A stretch of 64,000 nucleotides of DNA from an uncultured Polaribacter sp. (GTDB lineage Bacteria; Bacteroidota; Bacteroidia; Flavobacteriales; Flavobacteriaceae), in contig CAJQQH010000043.1 of NCBI GenBank assembly GCA_905480405.1, positions 1-64,000 of the forward strand, written 5' to 3'. Of the stretch, positions 3,250 through 34,572 are shown one piece after another; within the stretch, counting starts at the first letter, position 1; each line of letters starts with the position of its first letter. The notes beneath the pieces were generated by a model. That model did no database searches, was not told the DNA's origin, and worked only from the letters and a program-made list of their open reading frames with translations. The translations under genes and the position numbers were made by a program.

Positions 3250-3440
3250 GCAATATTAATTTAAGAAACGGCTAAAAAAAAACATAAAAGCGTTCTTAAA
3301 GGCTTTTATGCTGATTCAATTTAATTTTAAAATATTTTTCTTATACTATTTTGCAAACGTACCAAGATACTATGGAATTTACTATTAAAATTTAACAATT
3401 TAATATCGTAATTAAATTTTTACAAAAAGACATAAAAAAA

Positions 3441-3478
3441 CCCTCTAATTATTGTTTTAACATCAACAATTAGAGGGA
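3441..3478 (-). terminator. Terminator-like hairpin downstream of lon
   Basis: CCCTCTAATTATTG...CAACAATTAGAGGG inverted repeat, T tract on the minus strand. Confidence 0.7.
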
Positions 3479-3484
3479 TTTATA

Positions 3485-5956
3485 TTATCCTAATTTCTTA
3501 GCATTCTTTACTTTTTGCTTTGTTAAAGCTATTTCTATTACTTCTTTCATTTCTGTAACATAATGAAAAGTTAAGCCTTTTAAATAGCTTTCTTTTATTT
3601 CTAAAATGTCTTTTTCATTTTCTTTACACAAGATAATTTCTTTAATGTTTGCTCTTTTAGCAGCTAATATTTTTTCTTTAATTCCGCCAACAGGTAACAC
3701 TTTTCCACGCAAAGTAATCTCTCCTGTCATAGCTAACTTGTTTTTGATTTTACGTTGCGTAAAAGACGAAACTAAAGAAGTTAACATTGTAATACCAGCA
3801 CTTGGACCATCTTTTGGTGTTGCCCCTTCTGGCACATGAATATGCACATTAAACTTTTCTAAAGTTTCTGGTTTAATACCAAACTCTTCAGCATTCGATT
3901 TTATGTATTGTAATGCAATTGTTGCAGATTCTTTCATAACTGTTCCTAAATTACCCGTTATAGAAAGTGTTCCTTTTCCTTTTGATAAAATAGATTCTAT
4001 AAATAAAATATCGCCACCAACTTGTGTCCAAGCCAAACCAGTTACAACACCTGCAACATCATTGTTTTCGAATTTATCTCTGTTTCTAGGAGTTCCTAAA
4101 ATATCTTCTACTTTTTCAGATGAAATTGCAACATCATATTCCTCTTCTAAAGCAATAGATTTTGCTGCAAAACGTACCACTTTTGCAATTTTCTTTTCTA
4201 AACCACGAACTCCAGATTCTCTTGTATATCCTTCAACAATTTGTTCTAACTGTTTTTTACCTAACTTTAAATGTTTAGTAGATAAACCGTGTTCTTTTAA
4301 TTGTTTTGGTAATAAATGTCTTTTAGCTATTTCTATTTTCTCTTCAATAGTATAACCAGTTACATTTATAATCTCCATTCTATCACGCAAAGCCCAAGGA
4401 ATTTGACCTAAGTTGTTGGCTGTAGCAATAAAAAGTACTTTAGATAAATCGTAACCAACTTCTAAATAATTATCATAAAACTCTTCATTTTGCTCAGGGT
4501 CTAACACCTCTAACATTGCAGAAGATGGATCTCCTTGATGACTCTGACCTAATTTATCAATCTCATCTAATACAAATACTGGGTTTGATGTTCCAGATTT
4601 TTTTAAATTCTGAATTAAACGCCCAGGCATTGCTCCAATATATGTTTTTCTATGCCCTCTAATTTCAGCTTCATCTCGTAAACCACCTAAAGACATACGT
4701 ACATATTTACGACCTAAAGCTTCTGCCACAGATTTACCTAAAGAAGTTTTACCAACTCCTGGAGGGCCATATAAACAGATAATTGGCGATTTCATATCTC
4801 CTCTTAACTTTAAAACGGCTAAATGTTCTATAATTCTTTCCTTTACTTTTTCTAAACCAAAATGATCTCTATCTAATACCTTTGTTGCATGTTTTAAATC
4901 GAATTTATCTTCAGAATAGATTCCCCAAGGTAATTCTAACATCAACTCTAAATAACTTCTTTGAACACCATATTCTGCTGCTTGAGGGTTCATTCGTTTT
5001 AAACGACTTAACTCTTTAGTAAAAGTCTCCCCTACTTCTTTCTTCCATTTTTTAGTCTTCGCTTTTAAACGCATTTCCTCTAACTCTTGGTCATTAGAAA
5101 CACCACCTAATTCTTCTTGAATGGTTTTTAATTGCTGGTTTAAATAATATTCTCTTTGCTGTTGATCTAAATCTTCACGCGTTTTAGACTGAATATCATT
5201 TTTTAATTGTAATTTCTGAAGCTCTTTATTTAAATGCTTTAATGTTAATAATGCACGTTCTTTTAGATTGTCTTTTTCTAAAATAACTTGTTTTTGCATT
5301 ACACTTAAATCCATATTGGAAGCAATAAAATTTACCAAAAAGGAATTCGAATGAATATTTTTTATGGCAAATGAAGCTTCTGAAGGTAACATTGGGTTTT
5401 CTTTTATAACCTCTAAAGCTTGTTCTTTTATAGAATCTATAATAGCATCAAACTCTTTTTCATCTTCTACTTCTCTGTTCTCAATTACTTCTTTAACAGT
5501 TGCTTTTAAATAAGGCTCGTCTTGTATAATTTCATCTATTTCAAAACGCTTTTTTCCTTGAATTATAACTGTTGTATTCCCATCAGGCATTTTTAATACA
5601 CGTAAAATTTGCGCTACAACACCTGTTGTATTAATATCTTTTAAACCAGGATCTTCTTCCTCTTCATTTCTTTGTGCAACAACCCCAATAATTTTATCGC
5701 CTTTATTAGCGTCTTTTATTAATTGAATTGATTTATCTCTACCTGCTGTAATTGGTATTACAACTCCAGGAAATAACACGGTATTTCTTAGCGGAAGAAT
5801 TGGTAATGTTTCTGGTACGCTTTCTTTATTGATGATTTCTTCATCTTCTGGTGTCATTAACGGAATTAATTCAGAGTCTTCATTCATCATATTTTGTAAC
5901 GACAAACTGTCTAACTTTAATATCTTTGTTTTGCTCATGTGCTGTATATCTGTCAT
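3485..5956 (-). CDS. lon: Endopeptidase La (ATP-dependent Lon protease)
   Basis: [20 protein letters not shown]-domain; [29 protein letters not shown] Walker [16 protein letters not shown] catalytic Ser. Confidence 0.97.
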
Positions 5957-6139
5957 TGTGACATTGATTTATTTTAACAAATAAAATCAATATCAATATT
6001 TTAACTTTAAAATTCTGATAATTAACTTATTAAATATAAAACCTTAATTATCCTTTATAATTAAAACAATTGTTGTGCCAAAGGATTTTTTAGTAAGTCT
6101 TATTAAACTTAAATACAATACATATATTGCAACAAAAAA

Positions 6140-6710
6140 ATGAAACAAATAATTCTAATTGCCCTAATTTCTATTATTTTCTCTTGTAAATCTAACAAAA
6201 CAAGTCTTGATCAAAATTCAATTTCAAAAAAGAAAAATATCATTGAAAGATATTAAAGAAAAAAAAGCAATTATTAGACCTAATAATAACAACTATTCAA
6301 TTGCAGGTAATTTCTTATATCATTATTTAAATACGGATAGTAAGTTTAATAAAATAAAAGGAGATTATTATTCTTTAAAACACCCCAAAAACATAGAAGT
6401 TAACATGATTGTAAATTACTCTAAAAAATTTATGAATATAGAAAATTCTATCGTTGCTCAAATTTGGGTTATTACAAAAAATGAAACAGAACTTAAAAAC
6501 CTTAAAATTAAAGTTTATTCAGAAAAAAACGGAATTCTAAATTTTCATTCCAATTTTAATAGAACCAGAAAAAATCCATATTGGGTTGAAAAAATTTTTA
6601 CAAAAAAGCTTGATACTAATACAAACTTTATCAACCTAGTTTCCGATGATAAAATATATGTTGAAGTAAATGGATATAAATATACATTTGTAACTCCTAA
6701 AGTTAATTAA
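6140..6710 (+). pseudogene. Putative lipoprotein gene interrupted by a frameshift near 6220-6250
   Basis: ATG at 6140 encodes MKQIILIALISIIFSCKSNK (lipoprotein signal) but stops at 6256; the rest is open in another frame (6207-6710, only a TTG start). Confidence 0.6.
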
Positions 6711-6714
6711 CTAA

Positions 6715-7662
6715 ATGTCTAAAATCAAAATTCAAACCATAACATATAAAGGATGGCAACATGCTATAGAAATTACAAATTTATATATTAAGATTATTAT
6801 TGTTCCAGAAGTTGGACGAATATTATCATTTAGTTTTATAAACTCAGAAAATATCTTTTACGAGAACAAAACTTTAGAAGGTGTAAAATTTAATAACGGA
6901 ACATATTTTATTAAAGAAGGAAAAATAGCAGCACCCGATATTGGTGGAAATAGGATTTTACCATGCTCTGAAGAATATTTTCATTTAATTTCTGGCTCTA
7001 GATATGTACCAGATCCTTTTATAAATGCTCATTCATATAAGTCTAAAATCTTAAATAATGGAGTTGTTTTAAAAAGCCCTATTAGTTCTTTATTAGGTAT
7101 TGAAATTATAAGAACAATTACTATTGATAAGGAAGGTTGTAAAGTATATATAGCGCAAGAATTGATTAAAAAACAAGCTGCAAAGAATAACACGCTAGAA
7201 AAAATACCTTTAACATTATGGAGTTTATCAAAAATTAAAAACCCTAACAGCAGTTTTACTCAAATAGCAAGAAAAAGTATTTTTAAAGATGGGTATACAA
7301 TTTCTAAATGGCCAGATGCTAAAAACTATGCAGAAGAAAACGCATCATTAGATAACAGTATTGTTACCTTAAAATCTTCTGAAAAACATTCTCAAAAAAT
7401 AGGAACAGATTCTAGAAAATGGGTTGCTAGTGCATATAAAGATAATTTATTTGTAGAAAAATTTAGTTATGATGATGAAGCACCTTATCCTGACAATGGA
7501 ACTTCGGTAACTATTTTTGGAAATCATTTATTTACAGAACTAGAATGCCTTAGTCCAGAAAAAACCTTATTAATAGGAGAAAAAATAACCTATAACTTAA
7601 CTTGGTGTTTATTTAAAAGCGAAGAAAAATCAAATTTAAAAACAGTATTCGACCGTTTTTAA
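6715..7662 (+). CDS. DUF4380-like hypothetical protein
   Basis: Single long ORF; ITNLYIKIIIVPEVGRILSFSF and IGGNRILPCSEEYF resemble DUF4380 / galactose-mutarotase-like proteins. Confidence 0.6.
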   Translation: MSKIKIQTITYKGWQHAIEITNLYIKIIIVPEVGRILSFSFINSENIFYENKTLEGVKFNNGTYFIKEGKIAAPDIGGNRILPCSEEYFHLISGSRYVPDPFINAHSYKSKILNNGVVLKSPISSLLGIEIIRTITIDKEGCKVYIAQELIKKQAAKNNTLEKIPLTLWSLSKIKNPNSSFTQIARKSIFKDGYTISKWPDAKNYAEENASLDNSIVTLKSSEKHSQKIGTDSRKWVASAYKDNLFVEKFSYDDEAPYPDNGTSVTIFGNHLFTELECLSPEKTLLIGEKITYNLTWCLFKSEEKSNLKTVFDRF

Positions 7663-7717
7663 ATTATTCATCTTCTAAAGGATTTATTATTCAATTCTAT
7701 CCTTTATTTTTGCGCAC

Positions 7718-8512
7718 ATGAAAAACATTAAACAAACCACAAAAAAGTTACAGCGTAATGTTGCAGAAGCTATTCAGCAATTTTCTATGATTGAAGATGG
7801 TGATAAAATTATGGTTTGTTTATCAGGAGGAAAAGACAGCTACACATTATTAAATATGATGATGTATTTTAAAAAAGTTGCTCCTATTACTTTTGAAATT
7901 ATTGCAGTTAATCTAGACCAAAAACAACCTGGTTTTCCAGAAGAAATCTTACCAGAATACCTTTCTAACCTAGGTGTAGATTTCAAAATAATAGAAAAAA
8001 ACACCTATAAAGTTGTTATGGATAAAACTCCAGAAGGTAAAACTACTTGTAGCCTTTGCTCTCGTTTAAGAAGAGGAACTTTATATGAAGCTGCTAGAAA
8101 TTTAGGCTGTAACAAGTTAGCTCTTGGCCATCATAGAAACGATATTATAGAAACCTTTTTATTAAACTTTTTCTTTGCAGGTAAACTAGAAACGATGCCT
8201 CCAAAATTTATAAATGATGCAGGAGATTTAATTATTTTAAGACCTTTAGCTTTATGTAAAGAGAGTGATATTGAAATCTATTCTAATGCATTAAACTTCC
8301 CTATTATACCATGTAACTTATGTGGTTCTCAAGAGAACTTACAACGTAAAAAAGTAAAAGAAATGATTACTAATTGGGAAATAGAAAGCCCAAACAGAAG
8401 CTCTGTAATGATGAATGCTTTACAAAATGTTTCTCCTTCTCACTTATTAGATCACTCTTTATATGATTTTACAGCACTAAAAAATAAAGTTTCAGAAAAT
8501 GTTATCTCTTAA
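7718..8512 (+). CDS. ttcA: tRNA 2-thiocytidine biosynthesis protein TtcA
   Basis: CLSGGKDSYTLLNMM PP-loop; CSLCSRLRRGTLYEAA; PCNLCGSQENLQR. Confidence 0.92.
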   Translation: MKNIKQTTKKLQRNVAEAIQQFSMIEDGDKIMVCLSGGKDSYTLLNMMMYFKKVAPITFEIIAVNLDQKQPGFPEEILPEYLSNLGVDFKIIEKNTYKVVMDKTPEGKTTCSLCSRLRRGTLYEAARNLGCNKLALGHHRNDIIETFLLNFFFAGKLETMPPKFINDAGDLIILRPLALCKESDIEIYSNALNFPIIPCNLCGSQENLQRKKVKEMITNWEIESPNRSSVMMNALQNVSPSHLLDHSLYDFTALKNKVSENVIS

Positions 8513-8637
8513 TATTTCTGAGAATTTTACTTATAATTTGGTGATAAAGATTGGCTTAAAATAAAAAGTTTACTTTTATTTTTATATAAACTGTCACATT
8601 TTAAAAACAGTTTTGTCTTTATTATAGAATCGTTTTA

Positions 8638-9204
8638 TTGGAAACTAACCAACCACATATAACCAACCTAATAGATCGCTGTAAAAAGTCGGATAAAAAC
8701 GCACAGCTAGAACTATACAAAGCTTATTACAAAGCTATGTATAATACAGCACACAGAATTCTAAAAGATAGTTATGAAGCAGAAGATATTATGCAAGAAG
8801 CTTTTTTAACTGTTTTTACAAAATTAGACACCTATAAAGGTGAAGTAACTTTTGGTGCTTGGTTAAAACGAATTGTAATAAACAAGAGTTTAACACAATT
8901 AAAGAAAAACAATAGATACGAAGAAGTAAAAATGGAAATTGTACCTAGTAACGAAATAGAAGATGCTGTTGTTGATTATAGGGGATTAAACCCAAAAAGC
9001 GTTCTAAATACTTTACAAAGTTTAAAAGATAATTATAGAGTTGTGCTTACCTTAAATTTAATTGAAGGTTATGATTATGAAGAAATTGCACTAATATTAA
9101 ATTATACAAACGAAAATGTGAGAACCACAGTTTCTAGAGCAAAGAAAAAATTAAAGCAAGCTTTACTTGCAGATAATATACAAGAACAAGCGTATGGAAG
9201 ATAA
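8638..9204 (+). CDS. ECF-type RNA polymerase sigma factor (TTG start)
   Basis: Sigma region 2 (AYYKAMYNTAHRILKDSYEAEDIMQEAFLTVF) and region 4 (LNLIEGYDYEEIALILNYTNENVRTTVSRAKKKLK). Confidence 0.93.
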   Translation: METNQPHITNLIDRCKKSDKNAQLELYKAYYKAMYNTAHRILKDSYEAEDIMQEAFLTVFTKLDTYKGEVTFGAWLKRIVINKSLTQLKKNNRYEEVKMEIVPSNEIEDAVVDYRGLNPKSVLNTLQSLKDNYRVVLTLNLIEGYDYEEIALILNYTNENVRTTVSRAKKKLKQALLADNIQEQAYGR

Positions 9205-9718
9205 ATTACACGACTTTTTCTCTGAAAATAATTTCGATTTTCATGAACCTAATTCAGCACATATAGAGCGTTTTGAACGCAAATTAAATAAAACTGAAAA
9301 AAAAAGCGCATCCTCATGGAAATGGCTTTCTGTAGCAGCATCTGTAGTTTTAGTTTTAGGATTTTGGCTAGGTAGCTCACACCAAAAACAACAACTAGAA
9401 TTAGCCGATATTTCTCCTAAAATGAAAGAAGTACAAAATTATTTTCTTTCTACAATTCATCAAGAATTAAAAACAGTAGAAAAAAATAGAAGTTTAGAAA
9501 CAGAAACCATAATTGAAGAAGCTTTAGATCAATTAGAAGAACTGGAAGACAATTATAAGCTTTTTATAAATGAATTAAATTCTGAAGGTAATGCAAGAAA
9601 AATTATTAATTCTATGATTAGAAATTACCAACAACGTTTAGAAATTTTAGAAAATGTATTGCAACAAATTGATCAAATAAAAAACCCTAACACACTAAAA
9701 AATGAAATCTATATATAA
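9194..9718 (+). CDS. Putative membrane-anchored anti-sigma-like protein
   Basis: Overlaps the sigma factor stop; single TM segment (SVAASVVLVLGFWLG); same position as the paralogous gene at 33468-34031. Confidence 0.6.
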   Translation: MEDKLHDFFSENNFDFHEPNSAHIERFERKLNKTEKKSASSWKWLSVAASVVLVLGFWLGSSHQKQQLELADISPKMKEVQNYFLSTIHQELKTVEKNRSLETETIIEEALDQLEELEDNYKLFINELNSEGNARKIINSMIRNYQQRLEILENVLQQIDQIKNPNTLKNEIYI

Positions 9719-10784
9719 AATTACTTTATTCTTTTTGCTTTTTCCTTTAATTACGACTGCTTATAATAATGACAAAAAGCATGAAAAAGTTAAAAGAATA
9801 AAAAAAGAATACAGCGTAAATGCAAATGCCAAATTATCTGTAGATAATAGATATGGTAATTTAAATATTACAACTTGGGATAAAAACAGTATTGAAATTG
9901 AAGTTACTATTACAGTTAAAGGTGATGATTTAGATAGCGTTAATGATAAATTAGAAAGTATAGATGTAGAGTTTGAAGCTTCTGAAAACTTAGTATATGC
10001 AAAAACTAGGTTTGACAAAGAGCAAAAAAGTTGGTCTTTTTGGAAAAGAAACAACAACTTAAATTTTAAAATTAACTACATAATTAAAATGCCAAAAACT
10101 AATTCTGTAGATTTAGATAATGATTATGGTAATATTACTTTAGGTGATTTATTAGGAAAGGCAAATATTAATTGTGATTATGGAAAAATTTCTGTTGGAG
10201 AATTGGCTGCAAATAACAATGATATTAATTTAGATTATTGTTCTTCGTCAACTATTGCTTATATGAAAAGTGGAGATATAAATGCAGATTATTCTAAAGT
10301 TACAATTGAAGAGTCAGAAGATATAAGAGTAAATATAGATTACACTACTTTAAAAATAGAAAAAGTTGGTAACATTAGTTTTAATGCTGATTATGGATCT
10401 ATAAATATTGATGAAGCTACCAATGTTAAAGGTAACTCAGACTATGTTGGCTTACATTTTGGTACAATTAGAAAGAACTTAAAAATTGACACTGATTATG
10501 GAGCAATTTCTGTAAAAAGATTAGTAAAAGGTTTTGAAAGCGTGGACATAGAAGGCCAATATGCTGGCATTAGAATTGGTGTAGATGAAAATGCGGTTTT
10601 CAACTTTGAGTTAGACCTACAGTTTGCAAGTCTTAAAGGAGATAATAACAAAATGGAGTTCTTCAAAAAAATATCGAAGTCTACTAAAAAATATTACGAA
10701 GGTAAGTTTGGAAAAGGAAACTCGAACTCAAACATAAAAATTAGATCTCAATACGGAGGTGTAACAATCAAAGAAAATAACTAA
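9702..10784 (+). CDS. DUF4097-like adhesin/beta-helix protein
   Basis: Signal peptide; repeating ~20-aa DYGxI strands typical of DUF4097-like right-handed beta-repeats. Confidence 0.7.
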   Translation: MKSIYKITLFFLLFPLITTAYNNDKKHEKVKRIKKEYSVNANAKLSVDNRYGNLNITTWDKNSIEIEVTITVKGDDLDSVNDKLESIDVEFEASENLVYAKTRFDKEQKSWSFWKRNNNLNFKINYIIKMPKTNSVDLDNDYGNITLGDLLGKANINCDYGKISVGELAANNNDINLDYCSSSTIAYMKSGDINADYSKVTIEESEDIRVNIDYTTLKIEKVGNISFNADYGSINIDEATNVKGNSDYVGLHFGTIRKNLKIDTDYGAISVKRLVKGFESVDIEGQYAGIRIGVDENAVFNFELDLQFASLKGDNNKMEFFKKISKSTKKYYEGKFGKGNSNSNIKIRSQYGGVTIKENN

Positions 10785-10807
10785 AAAACTAACTTAAAAA
10801 ATAAACC

Positions 10808-11542
10808 ATGTTTAAAAAAATTATACTTACAACATTTATTTTAACTGTAAGCCTTTCTGTTAATGCACAAGATTGGTGGGGAAAAAGTAAAAAAATTAAA
10901 GGAAATGGTAATGTTGTTACCGTAAACAGAACTACATCTGATTATGATGGTGTTTCTGCAGGTGGTTCTTTTGATGTAATTCTTGTAAAAGGGGAAGAAG
11001 GAAAAATCATTATAGAAGGAGAAGAAAATATCATTCCGCATATAGAAACTGAAGTATCTGGTAGTATTCTAAAAATTAAATTTAGAAAAAACACTAATAT
11101 TAGAACAACAAAAAGACTAACAGTAACTGTAACTTACGAAAGTATAGAAAGTGTTGCTCTTGGTGGATCTGGAAACATTACTTGTGAAAGCACAATAAAA
11201 AGTAACGACTTTACAGTTGCATTAGGTGGCTCTGGAAACATTACTTTATCAGTTGATACAGATGAATTAAGTTCTAAAATTGGTGGATCTGGAAACATAA
11301 ATTTATCAGGAACAGCAAACGAATTAAGTTGTTCGATTGCAGGTTCTGGAAGCATAAAAGCGTATGACTTAAACACGAATACATTAAACGCTACAATTGC
11401 TGGTTCTGGAAATATTAGAACAACAGTAAAAACTAAAATTAAAGCAAAAGTAGTTGGATCTGGAAGTGTTTATTACAAAGGTAATCCAAGTCATGTAGAT
11501 ACTAAATCTGTAGGTTCTGGAGATGTAATTGACAAAAATTAA
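10808..11542 (+). CDS. Head GIN domain-containing protein (DUF2807)
   Basis: Signal peptide; repeated GGSGNI/AGSGSI/VGSGSV motifs with ~20-aa period. Confidence 0.87.
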   Translation: MFKKIILTTFILTVSLSVNAQDWWGKSKKIKGNGNVVTVNRTTSDYDGVSAGGSFDVILVKGEEGKIIIEGEENIIPHIETEVSGSILKIKFRKNTNIRTTKRLTVTVTYESIESVALGGSGNITCESTIKSNDFTVALGGSGNITLSVDTDELSSKIGGSGNINLSGTANELSCSIAGSGSIKAYDLNTNTLNATIAGSGNIRTTVKTKIKAKVVGSGSVYYKGNPSHVDTKSVGSGDVIDKN

Positions 11543-12916: not shown

Positions 12917-13702
12917 TTATTTTTTTATAAATTTCTGAGTACCTATTTTATCATCAGACAAAACTTTAAGAAGATAAATTCCAGTAGAAAGGTTGTTTAC
13001 ATTTACTTTATTATTAGATGTTGTAACTTTTTGTGTTAATGCTAATCTACCCACATAATCATAAAATTCTACAGTTGCATTATCTGAACCTGAAGGTAAT
13101 TGAATCGTTAATTTATCTGAAGCAGGGTTAGGATACATTTCAAAATCTAAACGTTTAGCTTCTGCAATACCTAATACATTAAAACTAGATGAAGTAGTTG
13201 TAACTACCTGATCGCCTCCGGTACCAGAACCATTACCCGCAAGAGCTGCCACATAAAACTTTACGGCTCCAACATCTGTACTAGGTGCTTTCCAATTAAA
13301 ATTCCATGATTTTTTAGAGTTACCTGTAGAAGTATGTGTTACATGCGTACCTCCGTTTTTTAATTGATTATTTGTACCATCAGCAGTAAAGGTTCCAATC
13401 TTAGAACCATCGCTAACTTTTTCTGCTGTAATTTGAAAACCATGTCTTGAGTTAGATGTACTAGAAACATCTACCTGTAAACCATAAGTTGTACCTAATT
13501 CATAACCAGTTGAAGGTACTTCTGTTTGTAATGCTACTGAAGCGTTAAAATTACCACCAGAATGACATTGAGTACACGTATTATTACTGTCTCCAGGAGA
13601 ACCAGAATAACCACCATCCCTTCCTCCAGAAAGGGACATTAATACTAAAGCAGAAACTGGAATTAATAATAAAAATGATTTAAAAAAGTAGTTTTTTTTC
13701 AT
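12917..13702 (-). CDS. T9SS type A sorting-domain protein with choice-of-anchor V-like domain
   Basis: Signal peptide; SGGRDGGYSGSPGDSNNTCTQCHSGG; C-terminal MYPNPASDKLTIQL...LSTGIYLLKV...TQKFIKK. Confidence 0.87.
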   Translation of the reverse strand: MKKNYFFKSFLLLIPVSALVLMSLSGGRDGGYSGSPGDSNNTCTQCHSGGNFNASVALQTEVPSTGYELGTTYGLQVDVSSTSNSRHGFQITAEKVSDGSKIGTFTADGTNNQLKNGGTHVTHTSTGNSKKSWNFNWKAPSTDVGAVKFYVAALAGNGSGTGGDQVVTTTSSSFNVLGIAEAKRLDFEMYPNPASDKLTIQLPSGSDNATVEFYDYVGRLALTQKVTTSNNKVNVNNLSTGIYLLKVLSDDKIGTQKFIKK

Positions 13703-13946
13703 GTTAGTTGTTTTTTAATTTTATTTATTTTTTTAATTGCGTTCTCACAAAATTTAATGAATTATTAATTTCATAAAAATAATGATTTAGATTTTGAATT
13801 CTATTGTAAATAAAACAAAAACAATACTTTAATACAATAAAATAAAAATAAAAGGGAAAAAACACCTCTAAAAAAGGAATATTTTATGTTGAAAATCTAC
13901 CTTTTAAAAATGATAACTAAAATAAAAAGAGTTGTATTTTTGATTT

Positions 13947-15756: not shown

Positions 15757-16626
15757 TTAAAAAGTTCTTGAGATGTTAAATCCTAGGTGAATATCACCAC
15801 CAAAGAAATTACCAGTGGTTTCCGCAATAAAACTTTTCTCAATCATTGTTATTGCATTCGATAAAATTAATTGAAATACATGTCCTCCAGTTTCTATATC
15901 TACACCAAAAGCTAAAGAATTTCTTGCGTTAATAGACTTAGACTCATCAAAAGCATAATAATACTCACTATTTAAAGAAACCCTTTTACTTAGTTTTATA
16001 CGACTACCAAAACCAATTGCAAAAATATCATGTGGATCTGCATCTATTTTTACAGTATTTCGATGTATGTAAGTAGGTGTAATTTGATATGAAAATGATT
16101 GACTTACTTTTCTTGCAACTAAAACTTGACCAACATAAGTTAAGCTTTCTGCAAAAGACCTTTTGTTATCAGGATCATAATCTTTAATTGTTTTTACCGC
16201 TAAACTTCCAAAAAGTGAAACAGCAAAAGGAAATGATTTATTTCCATTTTTCTGCTTTAACCAGCTATATTTTAAGAAACTATCATAAACCTTATCAAAA
16301 CTACTTCTACCAAAACCTATAGTTAAGTTGTCGTTTAAACCATATTCAAGAGCAAAACGAATATTAGATTGATCTAAACCAAAAAGCTCATCAAAACCTA
16401 AGTTTACTCTTCCAAATCTATGAGAAATTACAAACTCTAATTCTTTTTCTTTTCTATTTTCTATTGAATGCCCGTTTAAAATTCTTGTCCCTTTAAAAGT
16501 AGATGTAACAATATCTTCTTTTTCAATTTGTGGAGTTTCAGTGTCCAAAACATCTAATAAATCGTCTTGAGAAAATGAATATAAAGAGATTGAAAACAGT
16601 AAAATGGTTAGTAGTCTTTTTTTCAT
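15757..16626 (-). CDS. DUF5777 family beta-barrel protein
   Basis: Signal peptide; TFKGTRILNGHSIENRKEKELEFVISHRFG and C-terminal barrel; paralogous to 20324-21229. Confidence 0.8.
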   Translation of the reverse strand: MKKRLLTILLFSISLYSFSQDDLLDVLDTETPQIEKEDIVTSTFKGTRILNGHSIENRKEKELEFVISHRFGRVNLGFDELFGLDQSNIRFALEYGLNDNLTIGFGRSSFDKVYDSFLKYSWLKQKNGNKSFPFAVSLFGSLAVKTIKDYDPDNKRSFAESLTYVGQVLVARKVSQSFSYQITPTYIHRNTVKIDADPHDIFAIGFGSRIKLSKRVSLNSEYYYAFDESKSINARNSLAFGVDIETGGHVFQLILSNAITMIEKSFIAETTGNFFGGDIHLGFNISRTF

Positions 16627-16630
16627 AATA

Positions 16631-17176
16631 TTATTTCTTATATGGTGTATGATTAAATTTAAAACTTACTTTTATTTTTTTTGCAATGTTTTTTGCTACT
16701 ACTGCAGGAATTTTAATATTAAAGTCGTCTACCTCAATTATAAAATTGCCTTCAACTAAAATATATTCTTTATTTCTAGTAAAATTCGCAACTATTGTTA
16801 GCTCCTTAGTAACCCCATGCATTGTTAAACTTCCTTTTACTTTTACATCTTTTGCTAGATTATCTATAGTATCAAAATTTAAAATATCTCCTTTAAAGGT
16901 TGCTTTAGGATATTTATCAGATTCTACATAGTTTTCATTAAAATGTTCTTGCATTAATGCTTTTTTAAACATAAATGATTTCATTAAAATAGAAATAGCC
17001 ATTTTACCTGAACTTGCATCTATAATACTTAAAACCTGATTATTCTCTGCTGTAATATTTTCCATTGGCGCTTTAGAATAAAATGTAATTGCACCGTTTT
17101 TAGTTAAAAATCTTTCTTGACTTTTGGTTACCGATACAAATAGTATACAGCAAACTAGTGTTATAATATGTTTCAT
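16631..17176 (-). CDS. YceI family protein
   Basis: Signal peptide; GAITFYSKAPMENITAENNQV...ESDKYPKATFKGDI...VKGSLTMHGVTKEL. Confidence 0.88.
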   Translation of the reverse strand: MKHIITLVCCILFVSVTKSQERFLTKNGAITFYSKAPMENITAENNQVLSIIDASSGKMAISILMKSFMFKKALMQEHFNENYVESDKYPKATFKGDILNFDTIDNLAKDVKVKGSLTMHGVTKELTIVANFTRNKEYILVEGNFIIEVDDFNIKIPAVVAKNIAKKIKVSFKFNHTPYKK

Positions 17177-17188
17177 AATTAGTTAATT

Positions 17189-17608
17189 TTATTTATTAAT
17201 AACTTCGCATTTAACAAGAATTACATCCATTAAATAGCCAGTACAAATTCCTTTTACTACTATATCTTGCCCTTTTTGTATTTCTTTTATTTTCTTAGTA
17301 GATTCAATTGACAAATGACATAATACACTTCCAAAATCATCGTTTGTTTCTAAAGAAATAATTCCTTTTTCATTTTCAATTTTAATATCAGAAACAGCTC
17401 CTTTTATTTTAATTATTTTCTCTAAATACTTTGTATTAGCCGTATTCTCATCCGAAGAAAAATCTTTTAAAATTTTATCTGCATTAGTAATAATATCTGC
17501 TGATTTTTCAAAAACATTAACATGTGGTTTATTGTACATTTTATAAGCAACAAAAGCTACAATTAAGCCCAAAATAAGAACAACTATGATTATTTTTTTC
17601 TTGTTCAT
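17189..17608 (-). CDS. OB-fold (tRNA_anti-like) membrane-anchored protein
   Basis: N-terminal TM; KYLEKIIKIKGAVSDIK...GSVLCHL...KGQDIVVKGICTGYLMDVILVKCEV. Confidence 0.72.
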   Translation of the reverse strand: MNKKKIIIVVLILGLIVAFVAYKMYNKPHVNVFEKSADIITNADKILKDFSSDENTANTKYLEKIIKIKGAVSDIKIENEKGIISLETNDDFGSVLCHLSIESTKKIKEIQKGQDIVVKGICTGYLMDVILVKCEVINK

Positions 17609-17619
17609 AATAACCCGTT

Positions 17620-17988
17620 TTAATTATTTAAAGCACCATTGTCTACCCAACATTTAATTGCTGTAATTTCATCGTTAGATAAACTACCACCTTGTGGCAT
17701 TCGTCTACTTTCTACTTCTGATAAAACAGAACTAGCATTAGAACTTACTCCATTATAAGAATCTAAATTTGGAAACTGTCCGCCACTAGAACTATGACAT
17801 TGTGTGCAATTATTATCAATAATAGATTTAACATTTGATGAAAAAGTTATTGATTCGCATGGATCTACAGTTACAGGATCTTCTCCCTCCTCTTCTATTG
17901 GTTGTTCTACATTTGTTAAACAAGAAGTAAAAAGTAAACTTGCTAACATTATTAAATATAGATTTCTAAATTTTAAATTTCTAGTCAT
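17620..17988 (-). CDS. c-type cytochrome-like lipoprotein
   Basis: Lipobox LLFTSC; NCTQCHSSSGG (CxxCH) and MPQGGSLSNDEITAIKCWVDNGA. Confidence 0.83.
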   Translation of the reverse strand: MTRNLKFRNLYLIMLASLLFTSCLTNVEQPIEEEGEDPVTVDPCESITFSSNVKSIIDNNCTQCHSSSGGQFPNLDSYNGVSSNASSVLSEVESRRMPQGGSLSNDEITAIKCWVDNGALNN

Positions 17989-18055
17989 AATAGTGCGTTT
18001 TAAATTTCTTCTGTAAAGTAACTATAATTAAGAGATTTACAAAGCATTAACCTTT

Positions 18056-18104
18056 ATGAAAGGGAAATAAAATTGGTTAAAAAGGAAAAAAAAGGGTTGA
18101 AAAG
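18056..18104 (-). promoter_or_regulatory. Candidate regulator-binding element upstream of the minus-strand operon
   Basis: Sequence and spacing similar to 19255-19303; minus strand reads CTTTTCAACCCTTTTTTTTCCTTTTTAACCAATTTTATTTCCCTTTCAT. Confidence 0.5.
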
Positions 18105-18129
18105 TAACCAACTTTAACAAAAGTAAAAG

Positions 18130-19218
18130 CTATAAGTTTAGCCACTGCTTAAATTCTGCAGCCTTATTTTTACTAATTATTATTTCGTCTGAAGTTTTAG
18201 ATTGCAATAATATTTTTAATTGACTATTACCATATTTAATAATCTTATCAATTGCAGAAATACTAATAATAAACTGTCTATTTGCTCTAAAGAATAAAGT
18301 AGAATTTAAATGCGTAAACATATCATCTAAACTCATATTAGTTGTAGATTTTTTACCATCAAAACAAATAACATACGTAATTGTGTTTTCTGTATACACA
18401 TACGCAATATCTTTAATAGCAATTGGCACTAACTCGTTTCTTATATATGTTAGAATCCTCTTTTTCTCACTTTCTAAAGGTTCTTCTGTAATAACCTTAT
18501 CCAATGATGTTTCTGCAATTTTTTCTTTATAAGAAACCAAATCGGAATTTAGTTTAGATAAATTAACCACTTCTGAAGTTAATGTTGAATTTTTTAACTC
18601 TAATTGTTTTTCATAAGCACTACCAATAATACGTACAGCTACAAAAGACAAAACGATTACTAAAATACCCATGATAGAAAAAATCAAATAGAAATTACCT
18701 TTTAAAGCATCCATTTGGGCTGTAATTCCACTTATATTTACATTAGCAGCAACTATTAAATCCGTTTTTTTAATTGGTGAAATATGAATAATTTCTGATT
18801 GATCTGGATTACTTTTATCCATTAACAAATCGTACAAATCATCTGAATTATTTTTCTCTTTTAAAGAAGAAAGTAAGTTTTCATTAGAATTTACTTGCTG
18901 GCCAACTTTTGTTTTATCTGGATGGCAAACCTCTTTACCACTCCAATTAAAAATACTAATAAACCAAGTGTCTGTATCAGAATTCTCTATAATCTGCTGA
19001 ATATTGGAAACAATTTTATCTTTTTTAATACCCGAAGAAACCTGAAAGTCAATTAGTTTTGCAACTTCATTTGCCTCTCGTTTACTAGATTCTACCTGGA
19101 CTTCTATTAATTGATTAGCACTTACTTTTATAAAGTATTGGCATGCAACTAAAGCAATAATTAAAAAAATTGCTGCTATAGATAAAAATGTTAAAAAGTA
19201 AAGTTTGTCTTTTTTCAT
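18130..19218 (-). CDS. Membrane-anchored sensor with LytTR DNA-binding domain
   Basis: Two TM segments flanking a Cache-like extracytoplasmic region (WFISIFNWSGKEVCHPDKTKVGQQVN); C-terminal LytTR (DIAYVYTENTITYVICFDGKKSTTNMSLDDM...FFRANRQFIISISAIDKII). Confidence 0.83.
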   Translation of the reverse strand: MKKDKLYFLTFLSIAAIFLIIALVACQYFIKVSANQLIEVQVESSKREANEVAKLIDFQVSSGIKKDKIVSNIQQIIENSDTDTWFISIFNWSGKEVCHPDKTKVGQQVNSNENLLSSLKEKNNSDDLYDLLMDKSNPDQSEIIHISPIKKTDLIVAANVNISGITAQMDALKGNFYLIFSIMGILVIVLSFVAVRIIGSAYEKQLELKNSTLTSEVVNLSKLNSDLVSYKEKIAETSLDKVITEEPLESEKKRILTYIRNELVPIAIKDIAYVYTENTITYVICFDGKKSTTNMSLDDMFTHLNSTLFFRANRQFIISISAIDKIIKYGNSQLKILLQSKTSDEIIISKNKAAEFKQWLNL

Positions 19219-19254
19219 AAAAAATAGAAAGGCGAAATATACTACTATTCTTTG

Positions 19255-19303
19255 CTTTTAATCAATATTTTTTTCCTCTTTAAGCTTATTTATTCCTTTT
19301 CAT
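19255..19303 (+). promoter_or_regulatory. Candidate regulator-binding element upstream of the plus-strand operon
   Basis: CTTTTAATCAATATTTTTTTCCTCTTTAAGCTTATTTATTCCTTTTCAT, similar to 18056-18104; TTCCTnTTT repeats about 20 nt apart. Confidence 0.5.
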
Positions 19304-19355
19304 ATAGATTTATAGTTGTAAAAAAGTAAATTTTTATTTTCTTTGAGCAACAAAT

Positions 19356-19793
19356 ATGAAAAGGAAAAACAAACTATTTTTACTGATGCTTTCTCTATTG
19401 CTTTTAGTAAATGGATACTGTTATATTGTTCCAATGTTTAAAGTTTCGAATAAAAATCTAGAGAAAGAAGTTGCAGAACTTGTTTTAAACTCGCAAGATT
19501 TAATTAATTCATATATGCTAAATGAAGAAAAATCTGATAGTTTATATTCTGGAAAAATTATTGAAGTTACAGGTTTTATTAAAAAAATAACCTTTTTAAA
19601 TAATAGAAACACCATAATATTAAATAGTAATAACGAATCTTTTGGAGTAATTTGCGATGTACATGCAAATGAAGTTGAAAAATTAAAAAAACTAAAGGAG
19701 CATCAAAAAATACGCGTTAAAGGAATTTGTAAAGGTTTTTTAAAAGACGTAATTTTACTAAATTGCTCAATTGACTTAATACCGAATGAATAA
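19356..19793 (+). CDS. OB-fold (tRNA_anti-like) protein
   Basis: Signal peptide; YSGKIIEVTGFIKKI...QKIRVKGICKGFLKDVILLNCSI, paralogous to 17189-17608. Confidence 0.7.
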   Translation: MKRKNKLFLLMLSLLLLVNGYCYIVPMFKVSNKNLEKEVAELVLNSQDLINSYMLNEEKSDSLYSGKIIEVTGFIKKITFLNNRNTIILNSNNESFGVICDVHANEVEKLKKLKEHQKIRVKGICKGFLKDVILLNCSIDLIPNE

Positions 19794-20334
19794 ACTACTA
19801 CCTCTCTTTTTTTTATTAATTTCTTTTGCAGATTTTAATGTAAATCAAAATCAATTTATTGCAAGACAAGGTCAAGTTTCTTTTTTTTCCTACACTTCTG
19901 TAGAGAACATTGAAGCTAAAAACAACCAAGTTTTAAGTATTTTAGACATAGAAAAGCAAGAAATTGCAATTAGTATGTTAATGCGTGCATTCGTTTTTAA
20001 AAAAGATTTAATGTACGAACATTTTAACGAAAGTTATATCGAGTCTGACATTTATCCTAAAGCAAATTTTATTGGAAAAATTATAGCTTTTGATGCATCA
20101 ACAAAAGATACACAAACAAAAATTATTCGTGGAAAGCTTTCTATACATGGTATTACAAAAGAAATAGATATTAAAACTACCATAGAAAAAGTAGATGGCA
20201 ATTACATACTATCTGGTAATTTTAATGTTTTAGTAAAAGATTTTGAAATTAAAATCCCACCAATCTTATCAAGTAATATTGCAAAAACCATTTCTATTCA
20301 ATTTAGATTTCAATACCAACCCTATGAAGATTAA
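19786..20334 (+). CDS. YceI family protein
   Basis: QGQVSFFSYTSVENIEAKNNQVLSILD...ESDIYPKANFIGKI...IRGKLSIHGITKEI; overlaps the upstream gene. Confidence 0.87.
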   Translation: MNKLLPLFFLLISFADFNVNQNQFIARQGQVSFFSYTSVENIEAKNNQVLSILDIEKQEIAISMLMRAFVFKKDLMYEHFNESYIESDIYPKANFIGKIIAFDASTKDTQTKIIRGKLSIHGITKEIDIKTTIEKVDGNYILSGNFNVLVKDFEIKIPPILSSNIAKTISIQFRFQYQPYED

Positions 20335-21229
20335 AGTAATATATCAACTGCTAACAATAGCTTTTATGGTTTTAAGCTCTTCTATAAACGCTCAAAATTT
20401 ATTAGATAAATTAGAAAAAGAGTTTCCTAAAGAACCAGTTTATAAAATAGCTACTTTTAAAACAACAAGAATAGGTTTAGGGCATTCTATAGAAACAAGA
20501 AAAAAAGGAGCTCTAGAAATTTCTTTATATAATAGGTATTGGGATATTCCTAACTTTGAAGGACAGCGTTTTTTAGCTGATAAAGTAAGTACTCGTTATG
20601 GTTTAGATTATTCTTTTACAGACAATTTAACATTTGGCTTAGGGTATACTAATCATGATAAAGTTACTGATGGTTTTTTAAAATACAAGCTAATAAAACA
20701 ACGTAAAAACACAAAAAAAGCACCAGTAAGCGTTACACTTGTACAAACGTTATCTCATAGAACTTTAGAAAACACTAACGCTGGTTTATATGATTCTTCA
20801 ACTACATCAAATAATTATGCTTTTGCAAGTCAGGTTTTAGTAGCAAGGAAAATAAATTCTGAATTTTCTTTACAAATTACACCCACTTTTATTCACAGAA
20901 AAGGTAATCCTTTAACAGATGACCCTAACAACCAATTTGCCGTTGGTTTTGGTGGAAGACATAAAATTGGGGGACATGCTTCTATTGTCTCAGAATATTT
21001 TTACGTAGCTAACCCCTTAAAATCAATTGATACTTATAATGCTTTTATGGTAGGTGTAAATTGGGAACTAAGTCATCTATTATTACAATTTCACGTAACT
21101 AATGCTCGAAATTTTGTTGAAGATACGTTTATAACCCAAACAAAAAACAACTTTAATGCTAAAGACGGTAATTTCCACTTTGGTTTTAACGCTACTTTTG
21201 TATTGCACACAAAAAAGAAAAAATTATAA
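20324..21229 (+). CDS. DUF5777 family beta-barrel protein
   Basis: ATFKTTRIGLGHSIETRKKGALEISLYNRYWDI...; likely start at the internal Met (MKIKVIYQLLTIAFMVLSSSINAQ). Confidence 0.8.
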   Translation: MKIKVIYQLLTIAFMVLSSSINAQNLLDKLEKEFPKEPVYKIATFKTTRIGLGHSIETRKKGALEISLYNRYWDIPNFEGQRFLADKVSTRYGLDYSFTDNLTFGLGYTNHDKVTDGFLKYKLIKQRKNTKKAPVSVTLVQTLSHRTLENTNAGLYDSSTTSNNYAFASQVLVARKINSEFSLQITPTFIHRKGNPLTDDPNNQFAVGFGGRHKIGGHASIVSEYFYVANPLKSIDTYNAFMVGVNWELSHLLLQFHVTNARNFVEDTFITQTKNNFNAKDGNFHFGFNATFVLHTKKKKL

Positions 21230-32086: not shown

Positions 32087-33487
32087 CTATAAGTTTTCTT
32101 TAATAATTTTTAGTTTACTATGTTTTCCTTCGATATTAATTGTATTATTATTATTTGATGCATTAATAAAACCATTAAATATTGTAGCCTTCTTGTTATT
32201 TATATGTTTATTAGAAACCTCAAGACTTGTAGCCGAAAAATTAAGTTTACTTTTTAAGTTAGATACATTTAATTCAGCTTCAGAATTATCTAGCATCAAA
32301 GTAAAAGTTTGGTAGTTAGAAATTACATTCTGAATAATCAACTCACCAAATCTATCAGATATCTCTACATTTTGATTTACCTTAACAATATTTACTCCAG
32401 AAGAATTATTAGACAATTTAGTATTTGTAATCGATGCTATTTTAGCATCGATTACATTATTTAAAAATAAATTACTTTTACTTAGATTATTAATTGAAAC
32501 CGGAGAATAATTAATAGTTAACTTACCTCCATTTAAACTGTTTGCATTAAAAGTTCCATAATTAACATTACCAGATGCCACTGTATTTGGTAACTTAACC
32601 TTACAATGACGTGTATTTAAGTCGAATGTTGCATTACTTGGGACTTTGATTTCTAATCTCTTTTTAATTTTAACTTTCTTACCATCAATTATTAAATTGT
32701 TAGAATCTGAAGAAAAACTTAACTTTAATTTATGTAGTTCTTCTTTCGCTTTTAAAAGTTCTTCTCTAATTTTTTCTTTATCAACTTTCTTTATTTCTAA
32801 TTTAGCTTTCAATAATTCTTTTTTCATTTGTTTTTTAGACTCAGCAAACTCTTTTTTCATTTTTGCTTTATCAATAGTCATTCTTTTTTTTAATTCTTTA
32901 TATTTTTTAGTTTTCTTAAATGCTTCCCAATCCTTTTTAGAATTAATATTCACATTCGTATCTCCATCATTCCATTGAAATGAGTAATTACCATCTTTTC
33001 CAACTATTTCATCTAAATCATCCATCCCTTCTAAAATACCATTTAAATCAAAATCGAAATCAAAATTCATTTCTGGTAAAACAATTGCATCAATAGTTGG
33101 AAAAATAATAGAATCTAGTTCTGGTATTTGAATATCCATATTATTAAAAACTAAAAAATCATTTTTAAATAGAGATGAACTATTTCCTTTAGAAGTTATT
33201 TGTACTTTATTCTTATTTCCTAAAGCTTCAAAATTCCAGTTTTTAAAATACTTTTCAGCTTCTTCCTTAGAAACTCCCTCAACTTCTATAAAAGCCGTTA
33301 TTGCTACTTCATTTTTATTCCAAGTTGTAACATTAATATCTGTATTAGATGCATTAATAGCAACTTCTACATTTTTATTTACTTTAAAATTTTCTGTATA
33401 TTTTTTATCAAATTTTTGTCCATACGTTGTACCTAAAATACAGATGGCAAAAATTGAGAAAATAGATTTATATAATTTGAGTTTCAT
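32087..33487 (-). CDS. Adhesin-like beta-repeat protein (DUF4097-like)
   Basis: Signal peptide, N-terminal NVEVAINASNTDINVTTWNKNEVAITAFIEVEG as in 9702-10784; central Lys/Glu coiled-coil; C-terminal beta repeats. Confidence 0.6.
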   Translation of the reverse strand: MKLKLYKSIFSIFAICILGTTYGQKFDKKYTENFKVNKNVEVAINASNTDINVTTWNKNEVAITAFIEVEGVSKEEAEKYFKNWNFEALGNKNKVQITSKGNSSSLFKNDFLVFNNMDIQIPELDSIIFPTIDAIVLPEMNFDFDFDLNGILEGMDDLDEIVGKDGNYSFQWNDGDTNVNINSKKDWEAFKKTKKYKELKKRMTIDKAKMKKEFAESKKQMKKELLKAKLEIKKVDKEKIREELLKAKEELHKLKLSFSSDSNNLIIDGKKVKIKKRLEIKVPSNATFDLNTRHCKVKLPNTVASGNVNYGTFNANSLNGGKLTINYSPVSINNLSKSNLFLNNVIDAKIASITNTKLSNNSSGVNIVKVNQNVEISDRFGELIIQNVISNYQTFTLMLDNSEAELNVSNLKSKLNFSATSLEVSNKHINNKKATIFNGFINASNNNNTINIEGKHSKLKIIKENL

Positions 33488-34031
33488 TTTGTTTTGTTTT
33501 TAAATTTTTAAGTTCTTTTAACTGTTTTTTCAACCGTTGCAACAGTTGTAAACGTAATTGTAAATTACGTATCAATGCATCTATAGTAACATCATTAACT
33601 CCATTTGTATTGAGCTCTTTTGTTAATGATTTATATTCTTTTGTTAATTCGGCAATCTTTAATAAATAACCATCTACAATATCTTTGTGTTTATCAGATA
33701 AATCTAATTCACTAATTTCTAGATTAATACTATTTGTATAATAAGTTTCTATGGTATTAAATTCTGGTGATATATTTCCTAAAGTTATCTCTTTGCTCTT
33801 TTTTATTGACGGAACTTCGCCTAATATTTTTGAAGGATAAAATTTAATACCTAAACTAACTAACAACAATATTGATGCTGCAATAGACAGCCATTTAAAA
33901 TTTTTCTTTTGAGATTTTTGTTGATGTAACTCTGACTGTAATAATGCTTCAAACTTAGTTGCATGATTTGTAGATAATTCAACATTTTTATCTTTGTATT
34001 CTTTTAATTTCTCTCTAATATCCTTCTGCAT
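33468..34031 (-). CDS. Putative membrane-anchored anti-sigma-like protein
   Basis: Single TM (FKWLSIAASILLLVSLGIKF); NISPEFNTIETYYTNSI; resembles 9194-9718. Confidence 0.6.
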   Translation of the reverse strand: MQKDIREKLKEYKDKNVELSTNHATKFEALLQSELHQQKSQKKNFKWLSIAASILLLVSLGIKFYPSKILGEVPSIKKSKEITLGNISPEFNTIETYYTNSINLEISELDLSDKHKDIVDGYLLKIAELTKEYKSLTKELNTNGVNDVTIDALIRNLQLRLQLLQRLKKQLKELKNLKTKQNETQII

Positions 34032-34572
34032 AACTCGTGTTTTTTAACCGTTCTTTCAATACTTTTTTACCTCTTAACAAATGTGTTCGAGATGTATTTG
34101 TGGTAATATTCAAAATTTCTGATATTTCTTGATGATCATACCCTTCTAACAAATACATTGTTAACACCAACCTATACTTTTCTTTTAATTTATTTATTTC
34201 TTCTAAAATTAAATCGACTGAAGTATCACTTTCAACTTTCCATTCATCTTCTTCTGTATTTGCAATTACTTCTTCATTTATAGAAACCAATTCTAATTTA
34301 TTTTTCTTTAATTGATCTATACTTTGGTTAATAACAATTCTTTTTAACCAAGCTCCAAAAGCAACTTCATTTTTATAATTTTTAATATTTTTAAACGCTT
34401 TAATAAAAGCATCTTGCATAACATCCTCTGCTATAAAGGTATCTTTAACATACCTAAATGCGACTAAAAACATAGCTTTACAATACAAATTATACAATTG
34501 CATTTGTGCTTTTGCATTGTTGTTTTTGCATTGATCAATGATAGGTTGATGTAGTTGTTTGGTTGATTTCAT
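34015..34572 (-). CDS. ECF-type RNA polymerase sigma factor
   Basis: YNLYCKAMFLVAFRYVKDTFIAEDVMQDAFIKAFKN; LTMYLLEGYDHQEISEILNITTNTSRTHLLRGKKVLKE. Confidence 0.93.
   Translation of the reverse strand: MKSTKQLHQPIIDQCKNNNAKAQMQLYNLYCKAMFLVAFRYVKDTFIAEDVMQDAFIKAFKNIKNYKNEVAFGAWLKRIVINQSIDQLKKNKLELVSINEEVIANTEEDEWKVESDTSVDLILEEINKLKEKYRLVLTMYLLEGYDHQEISEILNITTNTSRTHLLRGKKVLKERLKNTSYAEGY

Follow-up and report, generated by a model that had tools for sequence, protein, structure and literature searches.

Genes and layout of the locus

In a 64,000-nucleotide stretch of DNA from an uncultured Polaribacter sp. (GenBank assembly GCA_905480405.1, contig CAJQQH010000043.1, positions 1 to 64,000; hereafter the window), two paralogous operons, A and B, are arranged as mirror images around the gene of a membrane-bound LytTR protein, referred to below as the sensor. 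Both encode, in the order of transcription, an OB-fold protein, a YceI-family protein and a DUF5777 outer-membrane barrel, and operon A begins with an additional gene for a haem-motif lipoprotein (Table 1). These eight genes and their mirror layout had been proposed in an initial annotation made from the sequence alone, and both hold up, Pfam matching all five families at these positions, if only weakly in the case of the cytochrome-like lipoprotein. The similarity between the operons is true paralogy, far above chance, with E-values between 1e-19 and 1e-60 (DUF5777, 3e-60; YceI, 1e-53; OB, 4e-19). Absent from that annotation were a predicted third member of the regulon (12917-13702) and an operator shared by the three transcription units.

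The two DUF5777 genes are the only ones in the whole genome; translation of copy B most likely starts at the ATG at 20324 rather than at an upstream TTG. The predicted DUF5777 barrel, of about 12 strands, resembles NanC, OmpG and FapF (TM about 0.5). The YceI domain PF04264 is above the cut-off in both copies. The operon A lipoprotein matches Cytochrome_CBB3 below the cut-off (E=8e-4). Its alignment with 12 orthologues reveals invariance of C61xxCH65, M97-P98 and the lipobox C23. The CTQCH motif and the Met-Pro axial ligand thus form the pattern that would be expected of a His/Met monohaem c-type cytochrome.

Table 1. Genes and predicted regulatory elements of the locus (positions in the window)
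Feature	Position	Strand	Evidence and remarks
Choice-of-anchor V / Reeler-like surface protein sorted by the type IX secretion system (T9SS), with CTQCH haem motif; predicted third regulon member	12917..13702	-	NCBIfam NF041895 E=4.7e-32; Pfam Reeler E=7.4e-10; Por_Secre_tail
Third operator, upstream of the choice-of-anchor V gene, TTCCTTTTTTAGAGGTGTTTTTTCCCTTTT	13850..13879	-	Pattern match; site also before orthologues, even when unlinked
DUF5777 outer-membrane beta-barrel, operon A (289 aa)	15757..16626	-	Pfam PF19089 E=4.8e-94; predicted barrel
YceI-family periplasmic protein, operon A (lipid/quinone-binding family)	16631..17176	-	Pfam PF04264 E=5.9e-18; PDB YceI 5ixg E=4.5e-5
Membrane-anchored OB-fold protein (tRNA_anti-like), operon A	17189..17608	-	Pfam PF12869 E=5.4e-28; invariant Cys pair and KGxC motif in alignment
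Monohaem c-type cytochrome-like lipoprotein, operon A (CTQCH, Met ligand, lipobox Cys)	17620..17988	-	Invariant residues in orthologues; weak Cytochrome_CBB3 match
-7-like promoter box, core CTTTAC, operon A	18013..18018	-	46 bp from second CC of operator A
Operator A, direct repeat TTCCTTTTTAACCAATTTTATTTCCCTTTC	18058..18087	-	Half-sites 21 bp apart; first CC 97 bp before cytochrome start codon; kept in orthologues
Transmembrane one-component regulator (transmembrane helix, PDC/Cache-like periplasmic domain, transmembrane helix, coil, LytTR)	18130..19218	-	Pfam PF04397 E=4.6e-19; model and fold search
Operator B, TTCCTCTTTAAGCTTATTTATTCCTTTTC	19273..19301	+	Half-sites 20 bp apart; first CC 81 bp before OB start codon; found by A-trained matrix
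-7-like promoter box, core CTTTGA, operon B	19341..19346	+	46 bp from second CC of operator B
OB-fold protein, operon B	19356..19793	+	Pfam PF12869 E=8.8e-27; 29% identity to copy A
YceI-family protein, operon B	19786..20334	+	Pfam PF04264 E=4.5e-12; 44% identity to copy A
DUF5777 outer-membrane barrel, operon B	20324..21229	+	Pfam PF19089 E=1.2e-71; 38% identity to copy A

A predicted operator shared by both operons

Alignment of the intergenic regions of orthologous loci reveals a single direct repeat that precedes both operons in identical orientation to transcription. Its halves, TTTTTTCCTTTTTA and TTTTTTCCYTTTYA (TTCCYTTTYA-type), lie 20-21 bp apart in most sites, and in the orthologous loci the first CC is found 49-99 bp (A) or mostly 76-97 bp (B) from the start codon of the first gene. 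In the promoters of both operons a -7-like box (TTACTTT[AG]/TTTCTTTG), where recognisable, is separated from the second CC by 44-46 bp. LytTR direct repeats are made of 9-bp repeats with a 12-bp spacer (PMC6193735). The putative operators resemble them in being direct repeats that precede the promoter, with some 21 bp from one half-site to the next, and they are kept in orthologues. The element of a membrane LytTR protein of Bacteroides thetaiotaomicron is printed as ACCGGAAATCA, 11 bp, TGTA-19-TATCTTTG (PMC6193735); by our own count its second CC lies 47 bp from CTTTG, as compared with 44-46 bp here.

A site-scoring matrix trained on A promoters only gives 32.3 bits on the B promoter of the window, the maximum among shuffled sequences being 16.4. 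Nine of the 11 B promoters beat all 200 shuffles, and the remaining two reach p=0.010-0.015. In most 16-kb loci the same matrix puts the sites of A and B among its top two. Scores range from 33 to 40 at A sites and from 14 to 32 at B sites. This difference is compatible with different affinities and does not establish the "two differently tuned outputs" that the initial annotation had proposed.

A predicted third member of the regulon

A pattern, TTCCYNTTYN{10,13}TTCCYNYTY, was derived from the sites of A and B; it allows a variable gap and was used instead of a covariance model since the alignment was ungapped across the 20- and 21-bp spacings. It matches four times in the 3.35-Mb genome (once in the reversed control). 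Three of these matches fall in the window, where shuffled windows yield 0.00, namely at operators A and B and at 13850-13879. Because the pattern was built from A and B, only the third site counts as an independent prediction. This site precedes the choice-of-anchor V gene, whose orthologues in other sensor-bearing genomes keep the site even hundreds of kb from the sensor (L116, L119). In sensor-less genomes the choice-of-anchor V gene is often found inside the DUF5777 cluster.

Non-local pattern matches inside genes being counted as chance, the genes that follow intergenic sites in relatives encode a DOMON-T9SS protein, a CHRD protein with a Cu-oxidase-like match, Lipoprotein_15, lipocalin-like and collagen-like lipoproteins, and a TonB-C-like protein. 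At one such locus (L122, genome G034, 3439-4747) an operator precedes the gene of an ankyrin-repeat protein, followed by that of a DOMON-domain T9SS protein. Together with the Reeler-like choice-of-anchor V gene, the latter brings to mind the Reeler-DOMON pairing that occurs in eukaryotic ferric reductases.

The operator follows the sensor across relatives

A site with a score of at least 13.8 is present upstream of 24 of the 26 DUF5777 operons in 13 sensor-bearing genomes. None of the 24 DUF5777 operons of genomes scored sensor-less has one (all scores at most 3.3); this set conservatively includes G053, whose sensor is a distant one (32-35 %). The difference is significant within the genus (Mann-Whitney p=5e-6) and persists without the training operons (p=9e-5). 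In L043, one of the two misses, the OB start is unannotated and a site scoring 19.2 lies further upstream. The two sister operons L060 and L061 illustrate the contrast: the former, unlinked to the sensor in a sensor-bearing genome, scores 30.6; the latter, from a sensor-less genome, -6.6. Taken together, these data strongly support the assignment of operon A, operon B and the third gene to one regulon.

As a side observation, three successive haem-motif lipoproteins are encoded beside the distant sensor of G053 (L054, 2780-5079), one being a Lipoprotein_15 repeat with a C-terminal CxxCH and another carrying two haem-type motifs.

The membrane LytTR sensor

The sensor is a polypeptide of 362 amino acids which, according to its alignment and structural model (mean pLDDT 77), is composed of a transmembrane helix, a periplasmic alpha/beta domain, a second transmembrane helix, a coil and a LytTR domain. 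The Pfam match of the DNA-binding part is corroborated by fold search, which finds 3d6w (TMt 0.90), AgrA (0.77) and ComE structures. With two hydrophobic helices and a DNA-binding domain in one chain, the protein qualifies as a transmembrane transcription regulator. Its periplasmic part has weak fold similarity to the PDC domains of DcuS and CitA (prob 0.97 and 0.90, TMt 0.46 and 0.51, respectively). A "Cache-like" region had been noted from the sequence; since the Pfam search of the sensor matched no Cache model, the label PDC/Cache-like should be taken as a statement about the predicted fold.

Membrane-coupled LytTR activators that act through direct repeats about 21 bp apart, just before the promoter, are already known from the LytTR Regulatory Systems, i.e., HdrRM/BrsRM, and from similar operons of B. 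thetaiotaomicron (PMC6193735, PMC10269533). In the Streptococcus mutans type a soluble regulator is paired with a separate membrane inhibitor. Here, in contrast, there is no such inhibitor: the regulator is itself membrane-bound, with a PDC/Cache-like sensory domain in the same polypeptide, and its neighbours are the OB/cytochrome operons. The predicted targets also differ, being envelope redox-type operons, as does the half-site, TTCCYTTTYA.

Linkage, layouts and evolution

A search with the N-terminal part of the sensor yielded 80 named genome loci. DUF5777 lies within 5 kb of the sensor in all 66 of them that have enough flank. The best A-trained site of the locus falls less than 350 bp before a core gene in 66 of 76 loci, where 5.8% is expected (Polaribacter, 19/19; Tenacibaculum and Aquimarina, 21/24; others, 26/33). 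Four layouts are found. The mirror A-sensor-B is seen in Polaribacter, where nine genomes of the genus have it, and in Aquimarina. Tenacibaculum has the sensor with B only. In Maribacter, Sinomicrobium, Eudoraea and others, the sensor is divergent from a single lp15-cyt-OB-YceI-DUF5777 operon. Finally, another group of Flavobacteriaceae (e.g., L184-L186, L188, L189, L193, L197, L198) has two modules in tandem, divergent from the sensor, and in several of its genomes each module is preceded by a site. Some loci of the Tenacibaculum group (L160, L161, L166, L217) have two more adjacent YceI genes a few genes off, on the other side of the sensor.

Trees of DUF5777 and of YceI both place A and B in separate groups with full support; B lies next to A, and its stem is very long (1.49 and 1.15, respectively). 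We infer that the duplication giving rise to B is old, and that B diverged fast and came to occupy the ancestral divergent position. The mirror layout could also be read as a recent accident of inverted duplication devoid of functional meaning, as the paralogy of A and B and the absence of A beside the sensor in some sensor-bearing relatives might suggest, but this is barely credible given that the mirror is kept across the genus and in Aquimarina, that A and B make up two distinct clades of old date, B on a long stem, that operators are retained before both, and that the tandem-module group has sites before both of its modules in several genomes.

An even sample of the order has DUF5777 in 127 of 198 genomes and the sensor in only five; four of these five sensors adjoin DUF5777 and the fifth a haem-motif protein. 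At 20 further sensor-less loci, counted by eye, YceI lies near DUF5777 in 19, a cytochrome-like protein in 16 and choice-of-anchor V in seven. These figures indicate that the module is ancestral and the sensor a later addition. The putative redox module thus predates its regulator, which is lineage-specific, and is the more widespread of the two.

A few loci depart from the common scheme. At L065 (G005, 5791-10916), L072 and L081, divergent DUF5777 genes occur with cytochrome c genes, accompanied in L065 by genes for a 4Fe-4S ferredoxin-type and an NrfD-like membrane protein; the arrangement is probably a respiratory-type operon. Cytochrome-profile matches without a plain CxxCH (L231, L239, L242) may reflect loss of the haem or an altered motif. 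An apparent cytochrome-DUF5777 fusion of 416 aa (L219) was rejected: its record is rich in ambiguous bases, a signal peptide stands in mid-frame, and the frame probably represents two genes.

Proposed mechanism

We consider it likely that the sensor is a one-component transmembrane LytTR activator that switches an envelope redox or lipid-carrier relay. It would span the inner membrane twice and sense something in the periplasm through its PDC/Cache-like domain. The cytoplasmic LytTR domain, probably as a dimer, is predicted to bind the direct repeat just upstream of Bacteroidota-type promoters and would thereby turn on jointly operon A, operon B and the gene of the haem-motif T9SS surface protein. 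We infer activation rather than repression because the site lies just upstream of the core promoter. Downstream, YceI would carry a quinone/isoprenoid or a lipid, the monohaem lipoprotein would hand electrons on, and the DUF5777 barrel would give passage to the outer membrane, or through it, in the direction of haem/copper proteins on the surface. The physiological outcome could be the quenching of oxidised lipids or the delivery of electrons to a surface acceptor.

That the locus is one signal-responsive envelope system, as the initial annotation held, is strongly supported by the common operator and promoter geometry, by the operator tracking the sensor and by the near-obligatory linkage. 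The redox, quinone or lipid-carrier role that it also put forward agrees with the families and the regulon members and stays putative. It is suggested by the cytochrome, by the YceI family and by the haem/copper proteins of the regulon, the theme recurring near the sites in the form of the invariant CxxCH/Met, the Reeler-like CTQCH protein and the DOMON, CHRD/Cu-oxidase and Lipoprotein_15 proteins. An RNA-seq study of Riemerella under iron limitation, in which one YceI gene changed, was judged too indirect and was not used.

Several observations weigh against this interpretation. The case for the regulon and its redox function is built on sequence and models, and the collagen-like and lipocalin-like lipoproteins and the TonB-C-like protein are not evidently redox members. 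The sister-operon and genus comparisons do not fully remove the effect of relatedness: the tree offers five independent contrasts in sensor content, and the site changes with the sensor three or four times and never in the opposite direction (sign test p=0.125). An extra DUF5777 operon of a sensor-bearing genome (L059) has no site, and two distant loci (L182, L183) have no strong one. The most distant sensor homologue (G197) lies beside a haem-motif protein, with no DUF5777. Lastly, with the sensor in only 5 of the 127 DUF5777 genomes, the module must work without it in most of them. According to the initial annotation, the idea of a single system would fail if homologous clusters rarely carried the LytTR gene. 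They do so rarely indeed, yet the sensor, where present, is nearly always beside the cluster.

Alternative explanations

Two narrower versions of the proposed relay can be considered. The first, a possibility that we hold tentatively, is that it delivers electrons to the surface, from a quinone-type carrier via the monohaem cytochrome and the barrel to extracellular acceptors or enzymes, in the manner of Cbp2D or of porin-cytochrome conduits. DUF5777 lies beside cytochrome c, 4Fe-4S and NrfD-type genes in L065 and beside two haem proteins in L219, and DOMON and cupredoxin-like proteins are among the regulon members. However, there is one haem per lipoprotein, a single haem in or at a barrel of roughly 12 strands is not known to span the outer membrane, and the locus has no lytic polysaccharide monooxygenase and no acceptor was found. 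Haem proteins and outer-membrane barrels are encoded together in the MtrAB porin-cytochrome conduits, and Cyc2 is a fused monohaem cytochrome-porin; the likeness is one of gene content. Unlike them, the present system would combine an approximately 12-stranded barrel with one separate monohaem lipoprotein, and its conduit function is putative. A bolder, and unlikely, version sees in DUF5777, the monohaem lipoprotein and YceI a new and minimal type of electron conduit for the outer membrane of Bacteroidota (one haem, a small barrel and a quinone/isoprenoid carrier), run by some flavobacteria as two specialised versions under one LytTR switch. In Cbp2D a YceI-like domain that binds ubiquinone-8 (UQ-8) is joined to two cytochrome c domains (PMC8981238). 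Cbp2D/Cbp2E thus resemble our module in associating a quinone-binding YceI-like domain with c-type cytochromes; there, though, the parts are fused, secreted and equipped with a carbohydrate-binding module, whereas here they are separate envelope proteins with an outer-membrane barrel.

The second version, slightly more doubtful, is a defence against lipid peroxides, in which YceI and the cytochrome would quench lipid peroxyl radicals and the sensor would detect oxidative or membrane damage. It is modelled on Burkholderia, where the YceI-type lipocalin BcnA and the cytochrome b561 LcoA together shield membranes against lipid peroxidation (PMC9113575). Both systems couple an envelope YceI-type protein genetically to a haem protein, and YceI is paired with a haem protein in most genomes that have the module. 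However, the haem partner here is a c-type lipoprotein rather than a b561 membrane protein, there being no b561 gene at the locus, and no aldehyde reductase partner was seen. The additional OB protein and LytTR control have no counterpart in BcnA-LcoA, and the barrel and the T9SS surface proteins would be left unexplained.

It is very improbable that the common site is simply a T-rich element of promoters in general, or that a different regulator binds it while the sensor hitch-hikes. The site is T-rich and its region 71-75% A+T, but the pattern has no more than four matches genome-wide, homologous promoters of sensor-less genomes have no site, unlinked operons have it only where the sensor is present, and the 20-21 bp spacing of the half-sites is typical of LytTR direct repeats (PMC6193735).

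Significance

Within the collection of papers searched there was no mention of DUF5777, and nothing on YceI with LytTR in Bacteroidota, on YceI in Bacteroidetes operons or on flavobacterial LytTR regulons. Membrane LytTR regulators (PMC10269533, PMC6193735) and YceI-haem pairs are already known; what is new is the operator site shared by A, B and a third, previously unreported target. Elsewhere in the window, at 8737-11542 (+) and 32087-34572 (-), by-eye annotation points to two clusters resembling genes for a sigma factor, a short anti-sigma-like membrane protein and DUF4097-like adhesin-type proteins.

Several hitherto anonymous families, namely DUF5777, the OB-fold tRNA_anti-like envelope proteins and the choice-of-anchor V surface proteins, become members of one regulon with a predicted DNA site, so that their joint function can be tested through a single-gene deletion. 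The locus also illustrates how, in nature, a sensor and its operator can be acquired or lost jointly on top of a module that was already there, and how pairs of paralogous modules can stand under one switch in two layouts, mirror and tandem.

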